Assembly (NCBI GenBank): GCA_002700385.1
Contig: PADC01000006.1
Span: 682,001-746,000, forward strand
Origin: Cycloclasticus sp.
GTDB taxonomy: Bacteria; Pseudomonadota; Gammaproteobacteria; Methylococcales; Cycloclasticaceae
Reading direction: 5' to 3'
DNA: 64,000 bases
The notes below the pieces were generated by a model. The model saw only the letters and a program-made list of their open reading frames with translations, had not been told where the DNA came from and made no database searches. Shown here one piece after another: positions 1 through 49,167 of the stretch; the first letter of the stretch is position 1, and every line of letters starts with the position of its first letter. The position numbers were made by a program, and so were the translations under genes.

Positions 1-482
1 CAATTAACAGTGTGTCCACCATGCCCGCTAATAAAAGGCATTTCATGGACTAAAATACCAATATCAGTCGATTCAGCTATAGCCAGATAGTGTTTATATA
101 CTTGTTCATTAGAATAAAATTTCTCTCTAAAAACTAACGAAATCATGTCTGCACCTATTTTCTCAGCGTGTCGTGCAAAATCTATCGACACCCTCGTCGA
201 GCAATGCAGTGGATCCGCTACAATTACAATGTTATCTTCATCAAGCGCTTTAACTGTGTCTACAACAAATTTATTGAGCTCCCTAATTTCCTGCCACGAC
301 AATTCACTAAAACGGCTGTTATAACCCATGACATAGAATATTTTTCCCCCATCATCAAATATTTTTCTTAGATAGCACTCCAAGGTTAGATAATCTATTT
401 CATCATCTACTTCTTTAAAGGGTGTCATAACAGAAAAAACAGGTCCGTTGATTCGAGATTTTAATAGTTCAAGTTTATTCAT
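1..482 (-). CDS. DapA/NanA-like (dihydrodipicolinate synthase / N-acetylneuraminate lyase family) aldolase, truncated by left window edge
   Basis: My own reverse-strand translation from ATG at 482: MNKLELLKSRINGPVFSVMTPFKEVDDEIDYLTLECYLRKIFDDGGKIFYVMGYNSRFSELSW..., open to the window edge; overlaps the next gene by ATGA. Confidence 0.75.
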   Translation of the reverse strand, partial: MNKLELLKSRINGPVFSVMTPFKEVDDEIDYLTLECYLRKIFDDGGKIFYVMGYNSRFSELSWQEIRELNKFVVDTVKALDEDNIVIVADPLHCSTRVSIDFARHAEKIGADMISLVFREKFYSNEQVYKHYLAIAESTDIGILVHEMPFISGHGGHTVN

Positions 483-42906: not shown

Positions 42907-43088
42907 TATCTGTAAATTAAACTGATTATCTGCCTGCGCAACCCAACTAAGCATAACTTATCATCACTAAGCGCGTAAAAACTACGTTACCAAAGCCTTA
43001 GAATATAGTTGTGTTATATTTATCTACGTAATCACTAATGTCTTATTAGCCAAAACATATCCATGTTTGGCTTTTAATATGACAATAC

Positions 43089-43565
43089 ATGGAAGTACTA
43101 TCCACCTATATACAATCAATACGTGGACAATGGCTTCCGCTTATTAACACTGTTATAGCTAAGGAGAGATCAGTGCCTTTTAACCTCTCAGAAGAGCAAT
43201 TGCTGCAAACTGAAAAAGAGTTGGGTTGCACTCTACCTAATGAATATCGCGAATCCATGAAATCGGAAAATGGTGGCGAAGCTCAAACGAAAGAAGATGA
43301 TTGGGAGTTCTATCCAATTAAAGACACCTCTGACAGAAAGCGTGTTTCACGCACATGTAATCACATAATCAAAGAAACTGATTCATACAAGGGCTTCCGA
43401 AATTTCCCAGAAAATGCTCTAGCCATAGCAAGTAATGGTCTAGGAGACCAAATGGTATTTATTATAGAATCAGGACAGTATCAAAGCACGGTGTATTTAT
43501 GGCTTCACGAAACTGGTGAATTACAAGAATTGGCGGCATCATTCAGTGAAATCGTAAAGCTATAA
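43089..43565 (+). CDS. SMI1/KNR4-family-like protein (cassette ORF)
   Basis: FNLSEEQLLQTEKELGCTLPNEYRESMKSENGGEA...FPENALAIASNGLGDQMVFI: SMI1/KNR4 (SUKH) pattern. Confidence 0.8.
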   Translation: MEVLSTYIQSIRGQWLPLINTVIAKERSVPFNLSEEQLLQTEKELGCTLPNEYRESMKSENGGEAQTKEDDWEFYPIKDTSDRKRVSRTCNHIIKETDSYKGFRNFPENALAIASNGLGDQMVFIIESGQYQSTVYLWLHETGELQELAASFSEIVKL

Positions 43566-43672
43566 CAAAAGCAAGCAGGGGAACCAGCTACGCTCCGCAA
43601 TTTTTGTGGTTCGCTTCGCTTATACCACAAAAACCGCTCCACTGCGCTGGTCCCATGTTGCTGGCGTTATGT
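43560..43672 (+). repeat. attC-like site 1
   Basis: CTATAAC ... GTTATGT; internal arms AGCAAGCAGGGGAACCAGC / GCTGGTCCCATGTTGCT and TTTTTGTGGT / ACCACAAAAA. Confidence 0.85.
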
Positions 43673-43688: not shown

Positions 43689-44072
43689 TTGGTTTATCTA
43701 GGAAGTTGTCATTGTCGAGCTATAACGTTCGAGCTAGAAGCCCCTGAAAATATAGAGGCTGATCGCTGCAATTGTTCCATTTGTTCAAAGTCAGGTTTTT
43801 TACATTTAATAGTTCCACTGAGCAAGTTTAAATTACTATCTGGCGCGCAATCGGTTTCAACTTATACATTCGGTTCAGGCATAGCAAAGCATACGTTTTG
43901 TAAAATATGTGGTGTTAAACCTTTCTACACTCCACGCTCAAATCCTGACGGCATTGATATAAATGTCAATTGCCTAGATACTAAAGCAGCGTCAATCAAC
44001 GTCACAGAGTTCGATGGGCAAAACTGGGAACAACATGCACACAAACTTGCAAACAAGAGCAAAGAAACATAA
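43689..44072 (+). CDS. GFA (CENP-V/glutathione-dependent formaldehyde-activating)-like protein (cassette ORF)
   Basis: GSCHCRAITFELEAP...CNCSICSKSGFLHLIV...TYTFGSGIAKHTFCKICGVKPFY: zinc-binding GFA motifs; TTG start. Confidence 0.88.
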   Translation: MVYLGSCHCRAITFELEAPENIEADRCNCSICSKSGFLHLIVPLSKFKLLSGAQSVSTYTFGSGIAKHTFCKICGVKPFYTPRSNPDGIDINVNCLDTKAASINVTEFDGQNWEQHAHKLANKSKET

Positions 44073-44171
44073 CCAGTGCCAGCAATCGGACTTGGGCAAG
44101 CTGTCACCTTTTGTGCAAAAATACGCACAAAAGCCGCCATCTCACCCAAGCCGTTGTGGCAGGCGTTATAC
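44067..44171 (+). repeat. attC-like site 2
   Basis: ACATAAC ... GTTATAC with arms CTTGGG/CCCAAG and CTTTTGTGC/GCACAAAAG. Confidence 0.88.
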
Positions 44172-44201
44172 AAACACCACAATCAACAACGGAGAGTGAT
44201 A

Positions 44202-44774
44202 ATGAAAAATACATTTAAATTAGTGTTAGTGGCTTTGGCCTTTTCTAGCGGCATTGTGCATGCAGGTGACAAATGGGAAAAGTCAAATAAACACAGCTTC
44301 TGTCAAAAATTTCAATCTGGTTGGGAAGCAGATGGAAGAAAGCTATTCTCAAGTATCGCCGGGCATGGTACATGGGAATTTGAAGCAAATGTAACTATTC
44401 TTGAAGATGGTTCAGTTCACCCTGGAGCAGGTATTCCAAGACAAAACGTAAGTTGGCATATAGGAAAAGCGGGAGTCCATTTAAAAGATGGAATGACCTA
44501 TTCTTATGGAGGCAAAGAAAAAGATTCAAAGAAACACTATGTATTTTGCCCTGATAATCCGGCTGAATATCATTGGGTGGCGGGAAGTAATGGTAGTTAC
44601 CCTGCAAAAGCTGTTAACGGCTGGCACTCTTCTGAAAACCAAAAAGTTTGTCGTGCAAATTGGGGTGGTGGAAAGCACCCTGGAAAACTGATTCCAAGTT
44701 CGGGAGCATGCTTCATTGGTTATGGTGGCGGTGAAAAAGCAGTCAAATCGTACGAGGTTTTAGTTCGTAAATAA
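44202..44774 (+). CDS. Secreted DM9 (DUF3421)-repeat-like protein (cassette ORF)
   Basis: Signal peptide MKNTFKLVLVALAFSSGIVHAG; C-terminal WVAGSNGSYPAKAVNGWHSSENQKVCRANWGGGKHPGKLIPSSGACFIGYGGGEKAVKSYEVLV resembles the DM9 pattern. Start placed after GGAGAG SD, not at the ORF-track start inside attC 2. Confidence 0.7.
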   Translation: MKNTFKLVLVALAFSSGIVHAGDKWEKSNKHSFCQKFQSGWEADGRKLFSSIAGHGTWEFEANVTILEDGSVHPGAGIPRQNVSWHIGKAGVHLKDGMTYSYGGKEKDSKKHYVFCPDNPAEYHWVAGSNGSYPAKAVNGWHSSENQKVCRANWGGGKHPGKLIPSSGACFIGYGGGEKAVKSYEVLVRK

Positions 44775-44776
44775 TT

Positions 44777-44853
44777 GTATAACAATGCCATGCACCGGAT
44801 GCAAAACCCTTCGCTTCGCTACGTATTTTGCACCGGTGATGGCGGCGTTAGGC
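44777..44853 (+). repeat. attC-like site 3
   Basis: GTATAAC...GCCATGCACCGG(A)TGCAAAA...TTTTGCACCGGTGATGGC...GTTAGGC; one extrahelical A. Confidence 0.92.
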
Positions 44854-44879: not shown

Positions 44880-45572
44880 ATGACACCTGAAGATTTCAAA
44901 AATATTTCGCAGGGAGTTCAAGCGATTTTCATTGCTTTAGCGGCTGGTTTTGGCGGCTTGTGGGCAGTTTTCAAACTATATAGCAGTAAAGAATTAGACA
45001 AGTCTAGAGCTGAAGCTGTTAAAGCAAAAAAAGAGATTGAATTAAAGCAAGGTCTAGAAGGTGTTATTAAAGTAGAGCTGGGAGAGGCATCAGAAAACGG
45101 AAACGTGCCTGTTCTTGTTGAAGTCATCATTGAAAACAAAAGCTCAGATACACATACATTAGACTGGGATGGTTATCCCTTGAAAATCGCAAAACTGGAT
45201 TATGATGATGACGAAATTAGCGTGAACTATAGGTGCACTCCGATTTCAAATCTACAATATCGAAGTATCGCACCAACTACTGCAAAAGCCTATTGGTCTG
45301 CTCACACAAGCACTACTCTATTGCCATTCTCTTCACATCAAATGAGTTTTTACTGGAAGTGTAAGGCAGAGGGGGTGTATTTGATTAGTGTAACTGCGCC
45401 ACTACCAAATTCATTAGCAAAATATAAAGAAGACAGCGATCTAGACAAGACAATACACAAATCGAAGGAGAAGTACGAAAATTCCCTCGATAACTATGTT
45501 CATGAATTCCGATTTGTTACCACAAAAATTATACAAGTGCCTAACAAGGCATTCCAGCGGACGGACCGCTGA
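44880..45572 (+). CDS. Hypothetical membrane-anchored protein (cassette ORF)
   Basis: 230 aa; N-terminal TM (VQAIFIALAAGFGGLWAVFKLY), then charged helix; last codons run into attC 4. Confidence 0.65.
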   Translation: MTPEDFKNISQGVQAIFIALAAGFGGLWAVFKLYSSKELDKSRAEAVKAKKEIELKQGLEGVIKVELGEASENGNVPVLVEVIIENKSSDTHTLDWDGYPLKIAKLDYDDDEISVNYRCTPISNLQYRSIAPTTAKAYWSAHTSTTLLPFSSHQMSFYWKCKAEGVYLISVTAPLPNSLAKYKEDSDLDKTIHKSKEKYENSLDNYVHEFRFVTTKIIQVPNKAFQRTDR

Positions 45573-45586
45573 ATGTGGCGTTAACT
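45539..45586 (+). repeat. attC-like site 4 (short form)
   Basis: GCCTAACAAGGCATTC(C)AGCGGACGGACCGCTGAATGTGGCGTTAACT. Confidence 0.93.
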
Positions 45587-45606: not shown

Positions 45607-46662
45607 ATGAGTCTATCGAAGAGAATAACTAGTTTTGAAGGAATATTTTGTTCTGGCTTTTTGATTCCAGATCAAAGACATGTTACTGCTCTTTCTTTAC
45701 TCTTTGATAAAGTTCATTTTTTAAATCAACTTGAATATGTCGTTGAGTTTTCAAAAAGATATCGTATTTCTCTGAATAATGAAGAAAACCTTCCCGAACT
45801 TAGTTTAGTTCCCAGCAGTCCCGGATCAGATGAAGATCCTTTGAAAGATTTAACCAAAGAGCAAAAAGAAACTGTTAATAAATACCTCTTTCTAAGCAGT
45901 GAATTCTTTTACCGAAACTCACTGCTATTCTCAGATGTGTTTAGCTGTAGCCTTTTGCCTGATGATGGGCCAATGTCTGTGAAACTAATAAAAGAAGGGA
46001 AAAATGGAGAGAAAAACACATACGAAGTTACTAGAAATGATTTAGTAGTATGTACCGACTCAATGGATGAGATGGCAAGCTTCATAGACTCTGGTTGCGT
46101 TCCTGTGTTCATGAATGGTGCTAAATTTACACCTAGAAATACCGTGGTAGCCTCAGATGCAAAGCAAATAGCAGCAAACATTGCCCTTAGCTCCGTAGCA
46201 ATGGTCCTTCCATCGACTAAAGCAGCAAGAGCAGATGATATTATGGAGGCTAGAGAGAAGCTGAGTGATCACTTGCCTCACTTCTGGTCTGCAATGTTAA
46301 AACTATCTACAGAAATCAACTCAAAATTAGAGCCGGAAGCCTCGCCCATTGAGATTAAGAATCAGATAGACAACCTTGTTGCCAGCGTAGTGACACCAGC
46401 TCTAGTAGACTTGAGTCAAAAGCTTGAGATGGAACGAAAAAATAGATTTCGAAACATCTTAACATCTACAGCCAAAGGCCTGAGGGTTCTCGCTGGCCGG
46501 CCGCCTACAGATTTGGCTGGTTTAGTATCAGGTTCACTATTAGTTGGGGCTGACACGGCTATGGACTTTGCAAACCAACTTAGAAAAGTTGAGGCTTTAA
46601 AGAAAGAGTCAGGCATGAGTTATCTTATTGAACTGGATAAATTAACATCGAAAAACAGTTAA
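45607..46662 (+). CDS. Hypothetical protein, 351 aa (cassette ORF)
   Basis: Uninterrupted ORF filling the interval between attC 4 and attC 5; no family recognised. Confidence 0.75.
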   Translation: MSLSKRITSFEGIFCSGFLIPDQRHVTALSLLFDKVHFLNQLEYVVEFSKRYRISLNNEENLPELSLVPSSPGSDEDPLKDLTKEQKETVNKYLFLSSEFFYRNSLLFSDVFSCSLLPDDGPMSVKLIKEGKNGEKNTYEVTRNDLVVCTDSMDEMASFIDSGCVPVFMNGAKFTPRNTVVASDAKQIAANIALSSVAMVLPSTKAARADDIMEAREKLSDHLPHFWSAMLKLSTEINSKLEPEASPIEIKNQIDNLVASVVTPALVDLSQKLEMERKNRFRNILTSTAKGLRVLAGRPPTDLAGLVSGSLLVGADTAMDFANQLRKVEALKKESGMSYLIELDKLTSKNS

Positions 46663-46725
46663 CAAGGTGTTGCTAGGGACAAACTTACGCTACGCTTCAG
46701 TTTGCCCCAGAGCACGGCGTTAAGT
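46657..46725 (+). repeat. attC-like site 5
   Basis: AGTTAAC ... GGG(A)CAAACT...AGTTTGCCC...GTTAAGT. Confidence 0.9.
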
Positions 46726-47141: not shown

Positions 47142-47231
47142 ACTTAACAAGTGGGTCAAGTTCGTTCGCTATCGCTCACTGGGACGCTCCGCTCGTTCCT
47201 CGCTCCGCGCCCCTTACCCAAAACGTTAGTG
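47142..47231 (+). repeat. attC-like site 6
   Basis: ACTTAAC AAGTGGGTCAAG ... CTTACCCA...GTTAGTG, with GC-rich loop arms. Confidence 0.8.
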
Positions 47232-47543
47232 TGCTTTGAGGGGTTTTTGTCTTTTTCAAAGTATTTAAGTTCGAAGCTAAACGTGCCGCATAACGCATTC
47301 AGGTGTTTTCCGGTTGGCTCAAACCAAAACCTGCAGTATGCTTTGGTTCATTAGTAAACGATATTAAGTGCCAAGGTTAGGCTATTCGAGATACATGGAA
47401 ATGAGTGCAAAAATCCAACAATCAATTACCACTCAGTCGCAGAGTTCACCTGCGTGGTTGTTGCCAATCTCAATCTTCAAAGCCTTTATTTCAATTGCCT
47501 GTAATACCGCAAAACCTCTGAAGCTTGGGCAGCGCCTAGCGCA

Positions 47544-47624
47544 CACTAACAAGCACATCAAAAACCGCTCCACTTCGTTGCGCTGGACGTCGCTGACGCG
47601 ACGCCTTTTATGTGGGCGTTATGC
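47544..47624 (+). repeat. attC-like site 7
   Basis: CACTAACAAGCACATCAAAA...TTTTATGTGGGCGTTATGC. Confidence 0.85.
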
Positions 47625-47661: not shown

Positions 47662-48081
47662 GTGATAGAAAGAATGGTACCTGCACTGTATGTCGATGAT
47701 CTAAATCGATCCAACGCATTCTATTGTGATCTCCTTGACCTGAAGCCACGCTTTGAAGCTGATTGGATTGTTCAGCTTTCGGATTCCGATAACGAGTCAA
47801 TTGAACTAATTCTTCAACCGAGAACTCATGATCTTGTACCAAAGCCATTTCAGAAGACCCCACAGGGTGCCAGTATTACTTTCGTCGTACCCGACTGCGA
47901 TGAACTGTTCGAGAGGGCTCTATCTATGGGGCTAGAGATTATCCAAGAGCCAAAGAATGAGCATTATGGTCAACGCAGATTCCTGACAGTAGACCCGGAT
48001 GGCCTGCTAATCGATATAAGCTCAAATTGTGAGCCATCACCTGAGTTTATGGAGAAATATTTTGGCACCGAAAGCACATAA
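47662..48081 (+). CDS. VOC-superfamily (glyoxalase/bleomycin-resistance-like) protein (cassette ORF)
   Basis: MVPALYVDDLNRSNAFYCDLLDLKPRFEADWIVQLSD...GQRRFLTVDPDGLLIDISS. Confidence 0.88.
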   Translation: MIERMVPALYVDDLNRSNAFYCDLLDLKPRFEADWIVQLSDSDNESIELILQPRTHDLVPKPFQKTPQGASITFVVPDCDELFERALSMGLEIIQEPKNEHYGQRRFLTVDPDGLLIDISSNCEPSPEFMEKYFGTEST

Positions 48082-48165
48082 CAATGCTCTGCACTTGACC
48101 GCCAAAAGCGCCACTTCGCTACGCTTCATTCTGCTTTTGGCGGCAAGTGAGCTTGGTCGTTAGGG
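48076..48165 (+). repeat. attC-like site 8
   Basis: ACATAAC...CACTTG(A)CCGCCAAAAGC...GCTTTTGGCGGCAAGTG...GTTAGGG. Confidence 0.92.
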
Positions 48166-48169
48166 CCAT

Positions 48170-48442
48170 TTAAAACTGATTGTAATGTCCACCAATGGCG
48201 TAAATATAAATATATTCCTTATCAAATTTATAAATAACACGGTCTTTCTGGCTTATACGGCGAGACCACAAACCAGAGAGGTTGTGTTTTAATGACTCAG
48301 GTTTTCCAGTTCCAGTGCGCGGGTCGTCACGGAGCATTTCCTTCAATAACCGACAAAGCACTTTGTGTAGCTTTTTGTCTTTTAACCTAAGTTCCTCATA
48401 TGCAGCCCAAGTATTACCTTCAAATACCAGTGATCTCATCAA
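48170..48442 (-). CDS. yoeB: YoeB/Txe-family mRNA interferase toxin (cassette ORF, reverse orientation)
   Basis: TWAAYEELRLKDKKLHKVLCRLLKEMLRDDPRTGTGKPESLKHNLSGLWSRRISQKDRVIYKFDKEYIYIYAIGGHY. Confidence 0.92.
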   Translation of the reverse strand: MMRSLVFEGNTWAAYEELRLKDKKLHKVLCRLLKEMLRDDPRTGTGKPESLKHNLSGLWSRRISQKDRVIYKFDKEYIYIYAIGGHYNQF

Positions 48443-48704
48443 GCTCTCTGGCTGTAGGTTTATATCCTTTGTTTTTTGTATTAGTAGATGCTGAAGCCGC
48501 TATTTGCTTCATTAAGTCATTGTTTTGCAAGATATATAATGTTTCTTGTTCACGCTCCCAATCGTCGGCGCTTAAAACAACAAAATCATCACCGCTTCTG
48601 CGTGTTACTTTAAGTGGCAGATGCTCAGTAATTACTTGTTCCACAAAGCTTTTTAGGTTATCTCTAAACTTGTTTACGCTAATACTATCCATTATCCTCT
48701 CCAA
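48420..48704 (-). CDS. yefM: YefM/Phd-family antitoxin (cassette ORF, reverse orientation)
   Basis: MDSISVNKFRDNLKSFVEQVITEHLPLKVTRRSGDDFVVLSADDWEREQETLYIL; overlaps yoeB start. Confidence 0.92.
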   Translation of the reverse strand: MERIMDSISVNKFRDNLKSFVEQVITEHLPLKVTRRSGDDFVVLSADDWEREQETLYILQNNDLMKQIAASASTNTKNKGYKPTARELDEITGI

Positions 48705-48742: not shown

Positions 48743-48803
48743 CCCTAACAAGTCAATCAACAGCGACCACAAAAAGCGTGGCGCGTTATTTCAAACGTTA
48801 GGC
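48743..48803 (+). repeat. attC-like site 9
   Basis: CCCTAAC...AGCG(A)CCAC AAAAAGC GTGGCG...GTTAGGC. Confidence 0.75.
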
Positions 48804-48816
48804 CTACGCGGTTATA

Positions 48817-49167
48817 CTACCGACCACATGCCGCATCCATCATTGTTTTGTTGCCCGATGACCTTAACTTCCTGTATTCAGCAGCCCAAAAATCACACGT
48901 TTCTCGCTTAATTCTTTGAACATTTCTTTGATTTGCTGATTCAATGACTGCAATTCGCTTTTTTTCTTGATTCTGAATTTGCATTTCTTTCATTCGCTTA
49001 GCAGTTTCTATTTTCATTTTTTCAGCTGATTCCTTCATCATTTGAGCCGCAACTTTCAGTTCATAATGAGTCCATGCTTTTTCCGCTAATAACAACAGTC
49101 CATTGCCTAAAAATATGGCTATTGCTATTGTGAAGCATAAGGCCGTGTAATTAATCCTTTCTGGCAT
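48817..49167 (-). CDS. Hypothetical protein, N-terminal TM plus coiled coil
   Basis: ALCFTIAIAIFLGNGLLLL then MKESAEKMKIETAKRMKEMQIQNQEKKR; no attC seen after it. Confidence 0.6.
   Translation of the reverse strand: MPERINYTALCFTIAIAIFLGNGLLLLAEKAWTHYELKVAAQMMKESAEKMKIETAKRMKEMQIQNQEKKRIAVIESANQRNVQRIKRETCDFWAAEYRKLRSSGNKTMMDAACGR

Follow-up and report, generated by a model that had tools for sequence, protein, structure and literature searches.

DM9 lectins have been studied as animal immune receptors, and the oyster protein CGL1, or CgDM9CP-1 (Crassostrea gigas; PDB 5id8 and 5mh0-5mh3), is the closest described relative of the protein considered here. Mannose is held by CGL1 at sites between its repeats: one is made by Asp22, Lys43, Glu59 and His52 together with Ala127/Phe126, and the second by Lys114, Glu130 and Tyr123 together with Ala56/Phe55 (PMC4932603). 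Mannose binding by CgDM9CP-1 is abolished by the replacements D22A and K43A and not by H52A (PMC5712788). The family, DUF3421, has been placed in an oyster-lectin class by LectomeXplore (PMC7778903), and for most DM9 proteins other than those of oysters no clear function is on record (PMC10377782). Prokaryotic DM9 proteins have already been mentioned, in Legionella and Enterobacter (PMC5712788). A second body of work concerns integrons. Vibrio integron cassettes have been linked with surface properties, including a haemagglutinin (PMC3856429), and a study of macroalgal biofilms links integron cassettes with predicted extracellular interactions (PMC10963911).

Below, we describe a gene cassette for a DM9 protein in the draft genome (2.52 Mb, 13 contigs) of a species of Cycloclasticus. 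The window, that is, the whole stretch of DNA that was analysed, comprises 64,000 nucleotides of contig C12; its features are listed in Table 1. Pfam DM9 (PF11901) is the single family found in the encoded protein, at 62.2 bits (E 5.7e-17, residues 84-180) against a gathering cut-off of 26.2 bits; a search of NCBIfam matched no family. The original prediction had proposed a likeness to DM9 (DUF3421) from the letters of the sequence, with an HMM search set beforehand as its refuting test, and the Pfam result upholds it. When the whole genome was scanned with the DM9 profile, the gene scored 61.4 bits, and no signal appeared in any of 14 control genomes. Amongst all PDB chains, those of the oyster mannose lectin CGL1/CgDM9CP-1, which carry the deposited name 'Natterin-3', were the only significant matches (E 1.6e-5 by phmmer from the protein sequence alone, 2.4e-11 by hmmsearch from a profile of two rows). 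Chance resemblance to DM9 is ruled out by the Pfam, PDB and whole-genome scans. An AlphaFold2 single-sequence model of the protein reached a pLDDT of 33, too low for fold comparison.

The reading frame had been placed correctly by the original prediction, as had the Shine-Dalgarno-like element ahead of it. A start at GTG 44076, giving 232 residues, was rejected because the frame would then cross attC 2 and the cassette boundary. The proposed signal peptide is likewise plausible (residues ~1-21): the N-terminus, MKNTFKLVLVALAFSSGIVHA followed by GD, begins with MKN, continues with a hydrophobic stretch (Kyte-Doolittle mean +2.1 for residues 5-19) and reaches a cleavage-like motif, VHA/GD. Export by the Sec pathway is strongly indicated, and the mature protein would have 169 residues (18.5 kDa, pI 9.1).

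Table 1. Features of the DM9 gene, its product and the surrounding cassette array (nucleotide positions are those of the window; residues are those of the DM9 protein).
Feature	Position	Strand	Basis or remark
attI copy heading the array	43057-43156	+	blastn, 91% over 100 bp against L031:8958-9057, contig C8
attC 1 (SUKH cassette)	43560-43672	+	sequence, core match
attC 2 (ends the preceding GFA cassette)	44067-44171	+	R''/R' boxes; bottom strand folds, -31.8 kcal/mol
DM9 gene cassette, 682 bp, including attC 3	44166-44847	+	G^TT of the R' boxes of attC 2 and attC 3
Shine-Dalgarno-like GGAG	44190-44193	+	sequence; ~8 nt ahead of ATG
DM9 protein gene, 190 aa	44202-44774	+	ATG at 44202, stop ends 44774
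Repeat 1 of the DM9 protein (probable)	residues ~25-115		alignment with DM9 repeats; insert of ~27 aa at ~57-84
Repeat 2 of the DM9 protein	residues ~123-189		alignment with DM9 repeats
attC 3 (attC of the DM9 cassette)	44777-44853	+	R''/R' boxes; bottom strand folds, -20.0 kcal/mol
attC 4	45539-45586	+	attC array analysis
attC 5	46657-46725	+	attC array analysis
attC 6	47142-47231	+	attC array analysis
attC 7	47544-47624	+	attC array analysis
attC 8	48076-48165	+	attC array analysis
attC 9 (last)	48743-48803	+	attC array analysis; downstream segment occurs in relatives

The C-terminal half of the protein is unambiguous as repeat 2 (hhalign score 99.3, 99.4%), and a DM9 fold for this repeat is strongly suggested. 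The likeness had originally been confined to this half; that restriction was revised, as the Pfam match spans residues 84-180 and the N-terminal half resembles a DM9 repeat into which an insert has come. Aligned with other bacterial DM9 proteins, it reads GWEADGRKLF ... HIGKAGVHLKDGMTYSYGGKE, with ~27 residues interrupting. It aligns in register with DM9 repeats at an hhalign score of 19.9 (probability 10.7%), which was reached by none of 300 column shuffles (maximum 19.7). With statistical support this modest, the alignment is a hint and no proof; a divergent first repeat bearing the insert is the probable identity of the N-terminal half, and the whole is probably a two-repeat, CGL1-like protein.

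Read from the alignments, the residues that correspond to the first CGL1 site are Glu42, Lys89, Glu106 and Thr99 or Tyr100, with Gly175/Tyr174, and those that correspond to the second are Lys162, Glu178 and Phe171, with Gly103/Tyr102. Both pairs of charged contacts are kept by alignment (Lys43/Lys114 of CGL1 as K89/K162, Glu59/Glu130 as E106/E178), and repeat 2 aligns without gaps, so that K43/H52/F55/A56/E59 of CGL1 become K162/F171/Y174/G175/E178. The aspartate is not retained: Glu42, a conservative change, occupies the position of Asp22, and its counterpart in repeat 2 sits in a loop of different length. Because of this replacement, and because a CGL1 fold is putative here, we do not call the protein a proven N-type mannose lectin. 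It could instead be a secreted protein of DM9 fold that binds no sugar and serves as a structural or protein-binding module of the envelope. The presence of Glu42 in place of Asp22 would fit such a role, as would the basic character of the mature protein, the insert in repeat 1, which may sit near the presumed pocket, and the many DM9 proteins that have no known ligand (PMC10377782). However, the lysine and glutamate contacts are retained at both sites, and position 42 is also Glu in a full-length homologue of 54% identity (see below), with D or E common there in other bacterial DM9 repeats. We therefore consider a module without sugar binding rather unlikely, while giving it more weight than the other alternatives discussed below.

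The gene is carried as an integron cassette unit. In a true array, each cassette opens with a stretch of R' core, and this stretch corresponds to the R'' in the attC of the same cassette. Over the eight complete cassettes, leading (GTTANNN) and trailing (NNNTAAC) cores match by 6-10 nt in every case, and the sum of 67 is reached by the observed pairing alone amongst the 40,320 permutations of the trailing ends (mean 38.75). In the DM9 cassette, the leading GTTATACAA is the reverse complement of the trailing TTGTATAAC, and these cognate cores, matching over 9 nt, bear out the earlier placement of the gene exactly between attC 2 and attC 3. A search of Rfam gave no match that would account for the attC sites.

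As regards the other cassettes, the sequence places the start of the first at 43153, following the crossover G of attI; this cassette carries a SUKH-1 (SMI1/KNR4) protein (43173-43565), alone and with no partner toxin within the cassette; its true start is probably GTG 43173. The SUKH family includes many immunity proteins. Cassettes 4 and 5 (44880-45572 and 45607-46662) encode proteins of 230 and 351 aa without Pfam match, and cassette 7 (47226-47618, 393 bp) is without a convincing gene. A YoeB toxin and YefM (Phd) antitoxin (Pfam 73.5 and 57.8 bits) are encoded by cassette 9 on the minus strand (48173-48692), reversed with respect to the array; toxin-antitoxin cassettes are known to stabilise arrays.

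The sequence that heads the array is a copy of the one lying, on contig C8 of the same genome, between intI and its first cassette. This intI is full-length, scores 442.7 bits (cut-off 265) and has cassettes of its own; the integrase search found no integrase gene adjoining the array in the window. Given the attI copy and no adjoining integrase, the array is a cassette cluster without an integrase of its own, headed by a second attI, and IntI would presumably act upon it in trans. A match to intI above the cut-off occurs in 13 of the 18 genomes of the genus. Copies of the attI-like leader turned up in four congeners, one of which has two (L062). In another of these genomes, or the same, that consists of a single contig (G405), intI lies ~650 kb from the leader, so that draft assembly does not by itself account for array and integrase lying apart. 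Downstream of attC 9 come a gene (48817-49167) and then a tRNA; the tRNA-ychF flank is present in most congeners. Ten congeneric regions were extracted, and the cassette proteins of the window were not found in them, bar the beginning of the long SUKH frame, which the leader encodes; the flank has been conserved, the genes of the array replaced. Independently of the DM9 gene, the attI copy atop an array that lacks an integrase offers a case in which the idea of a secondary integration platform can be tested.

The DM9 gene is present in the source genome and absent from the sampled relatives, DM9 being missing from 17 congeneric genomes. Further afield its occurrence is sporadic: 3 of 399 genomes of the phylum and 8 of 369 of the class (both counts including the query genome) and 7 of 150 of another order, that is, about 1-5% of the sampled genomes per group. 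A full-length homologue with the same layout and 54% identity occurs in a distant part of the same phylum (G774:C1:459161-459724), adjoining a gene like those of the metallo-beta-lactamase fold; no further one was found in 385 genomes of the class of that organism, nor in 231 of the order of the window. The scattered hits in the 15 kb around this homologue do not chain into cassettes, and the surroundings of other bacterial DM9 genes showed no convincing cassette context. Plasmids, phages, viral contigs, GTDB-220 contigs and E. coli gave no matches to relatives of the protein, the contig scans depending on short peptide patterns.

Several architectures were met amongst the bacterial proteins. 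In one frame of 391 aa (L065; G1080:C15:85444-85857), a ricin-type beta-trefoil lectin domain precedes two DM9 repeats. A recurring protein of ~380 aa (L012, L076, L077) starts in the manner of a signal peptide, has a conserved N-terminal region, for which the L012 member gave no Pfam match, and carries a C-terminal DM9 repeat. Others, of ~540-565 aa (L014, L016, L019), have many hydrophobic segments and degenerate DM9-like repeats at the C-terminus.

It is conceivable that the cassette is a silent passenger, unexpressed and under no selection in the source strain. In third place within the array, the gene may go unexpressed, as promoter-like matches are not above chance, and DM9 is absent from the congeners. 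Against this, the frame is intact, with its Shine-Dalgarno-like element and signal peptide, and the 54% homologue in a distant lineage implies that the protein is maintained somewhere; we regard a silent passenger as unlikely. Still more improbable is a role in defence, in which the exported lectin would shield surface glycans from phages or grazers. The link of Vibrio cassettes to surface polysaccharide (PMC3856429) speaks for it; against it, the locus gives no direct sign of such a role, and neighbouring cassettes, being independent, need not share a function.

The best-supported reading, which we hold with fair though not high confidence, is that of a cassette-encoded, secreted, two-repeat DM9 protein that would bind sugar in the manner of CGL1 and the N-type lectins. 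It is favoured because a ricin-type lectin domain is joined to DM9 in one bacterial protein, and because of both the LectomeXplore class of DUF3421 and the surface properties with which integron cassettes have been linked. Carbohydrate binding as such is suggested by homology and by the conservation of residues. The protein would be exported to the periplasm or outside the cell, where the first repeat with its insert and repeat 2 would form two pockets at the repeat boundaries. In these, Lys89/Glu106 (with Glu42 for Asp22 of CGL1) and Lys162/Glu178 would hold a hexose, against which aromatic residues would stack: Tyr174 in one pocket and Tyr102 and Phe171 in the other. The ligand may be a mannose-type or other sugar, borne by the polysaccharide of the cell itself, by bacteria nearby, or by the surface of an alga or animal; its binding might help with adhesion, aggregation, or resistance to phages or grazers. 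The gene itself could be gained, moved and lost through the action of the genome's IntI on the attI copy and the attC sites.

A bacterial lectin-like protein of this kind had been called unusual. This holds for the cassette, of which no earlier report was found, and not for the protein, since bacterial DM9 proteins are known (PMC5712788); amongst the papers listed first in the literature searches, likewise, none joins DM9/DUF3421 with integrons. The novelty thus lies in the cassette as carrier and in the variant with the insert. The compact, secreted protein should be easy to express and test. To our knowledge, bacterial DM9 members have been noted and none assayed. The cassette bears on the bacterial origin suggested for the DM9 domain (PMC5712788), and it supports the view that integron cassettes provide surface-interaction functions. 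A bolder proposal is that the insert-bearing bacterial DM9 proteins are a subfamily of true sugar binders spread by integrons, with the array served in trans through its second attI; this is a tentative idea, and doubtful as a whole. If true, bacteria would own an exchangeable surface lectin akin to those on which animal immunity draws.

The protein belongs to the DM9 family, and it may work as CGL1 does. The two have DM9 repeats in common, with the lysine of a PGK-type and the glutamate of a GGKE-type motif at both sites and the aromatic stacking positions largely kept; in contrast to CGL1, the cassette protein is bacterial and cassette-borne and has a signal peptide, the insert of ~27 aa in repeat 1, Glu for Asp22 and four cysteines. 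The G774 homologue shares the signal peptide and insert layout but has no convincing attC sites around it. Other bacterial DM9 proteins (G796, G012, G1080, G703, G1262) share the repeats, and many have signal-peptide-like N-termini, but they lack the insert or have other N-terminal regions, with no cassette context detected. Finally, the chromosomal integron of Vibrio also carries surface and adhesion genes as attC cassettes, including that of a mannose-fucose-resistant haemagglutinin (PMC3856429); it is a different integron, and the DM9 cassette resembles its cassettes in the kind of gene carried.
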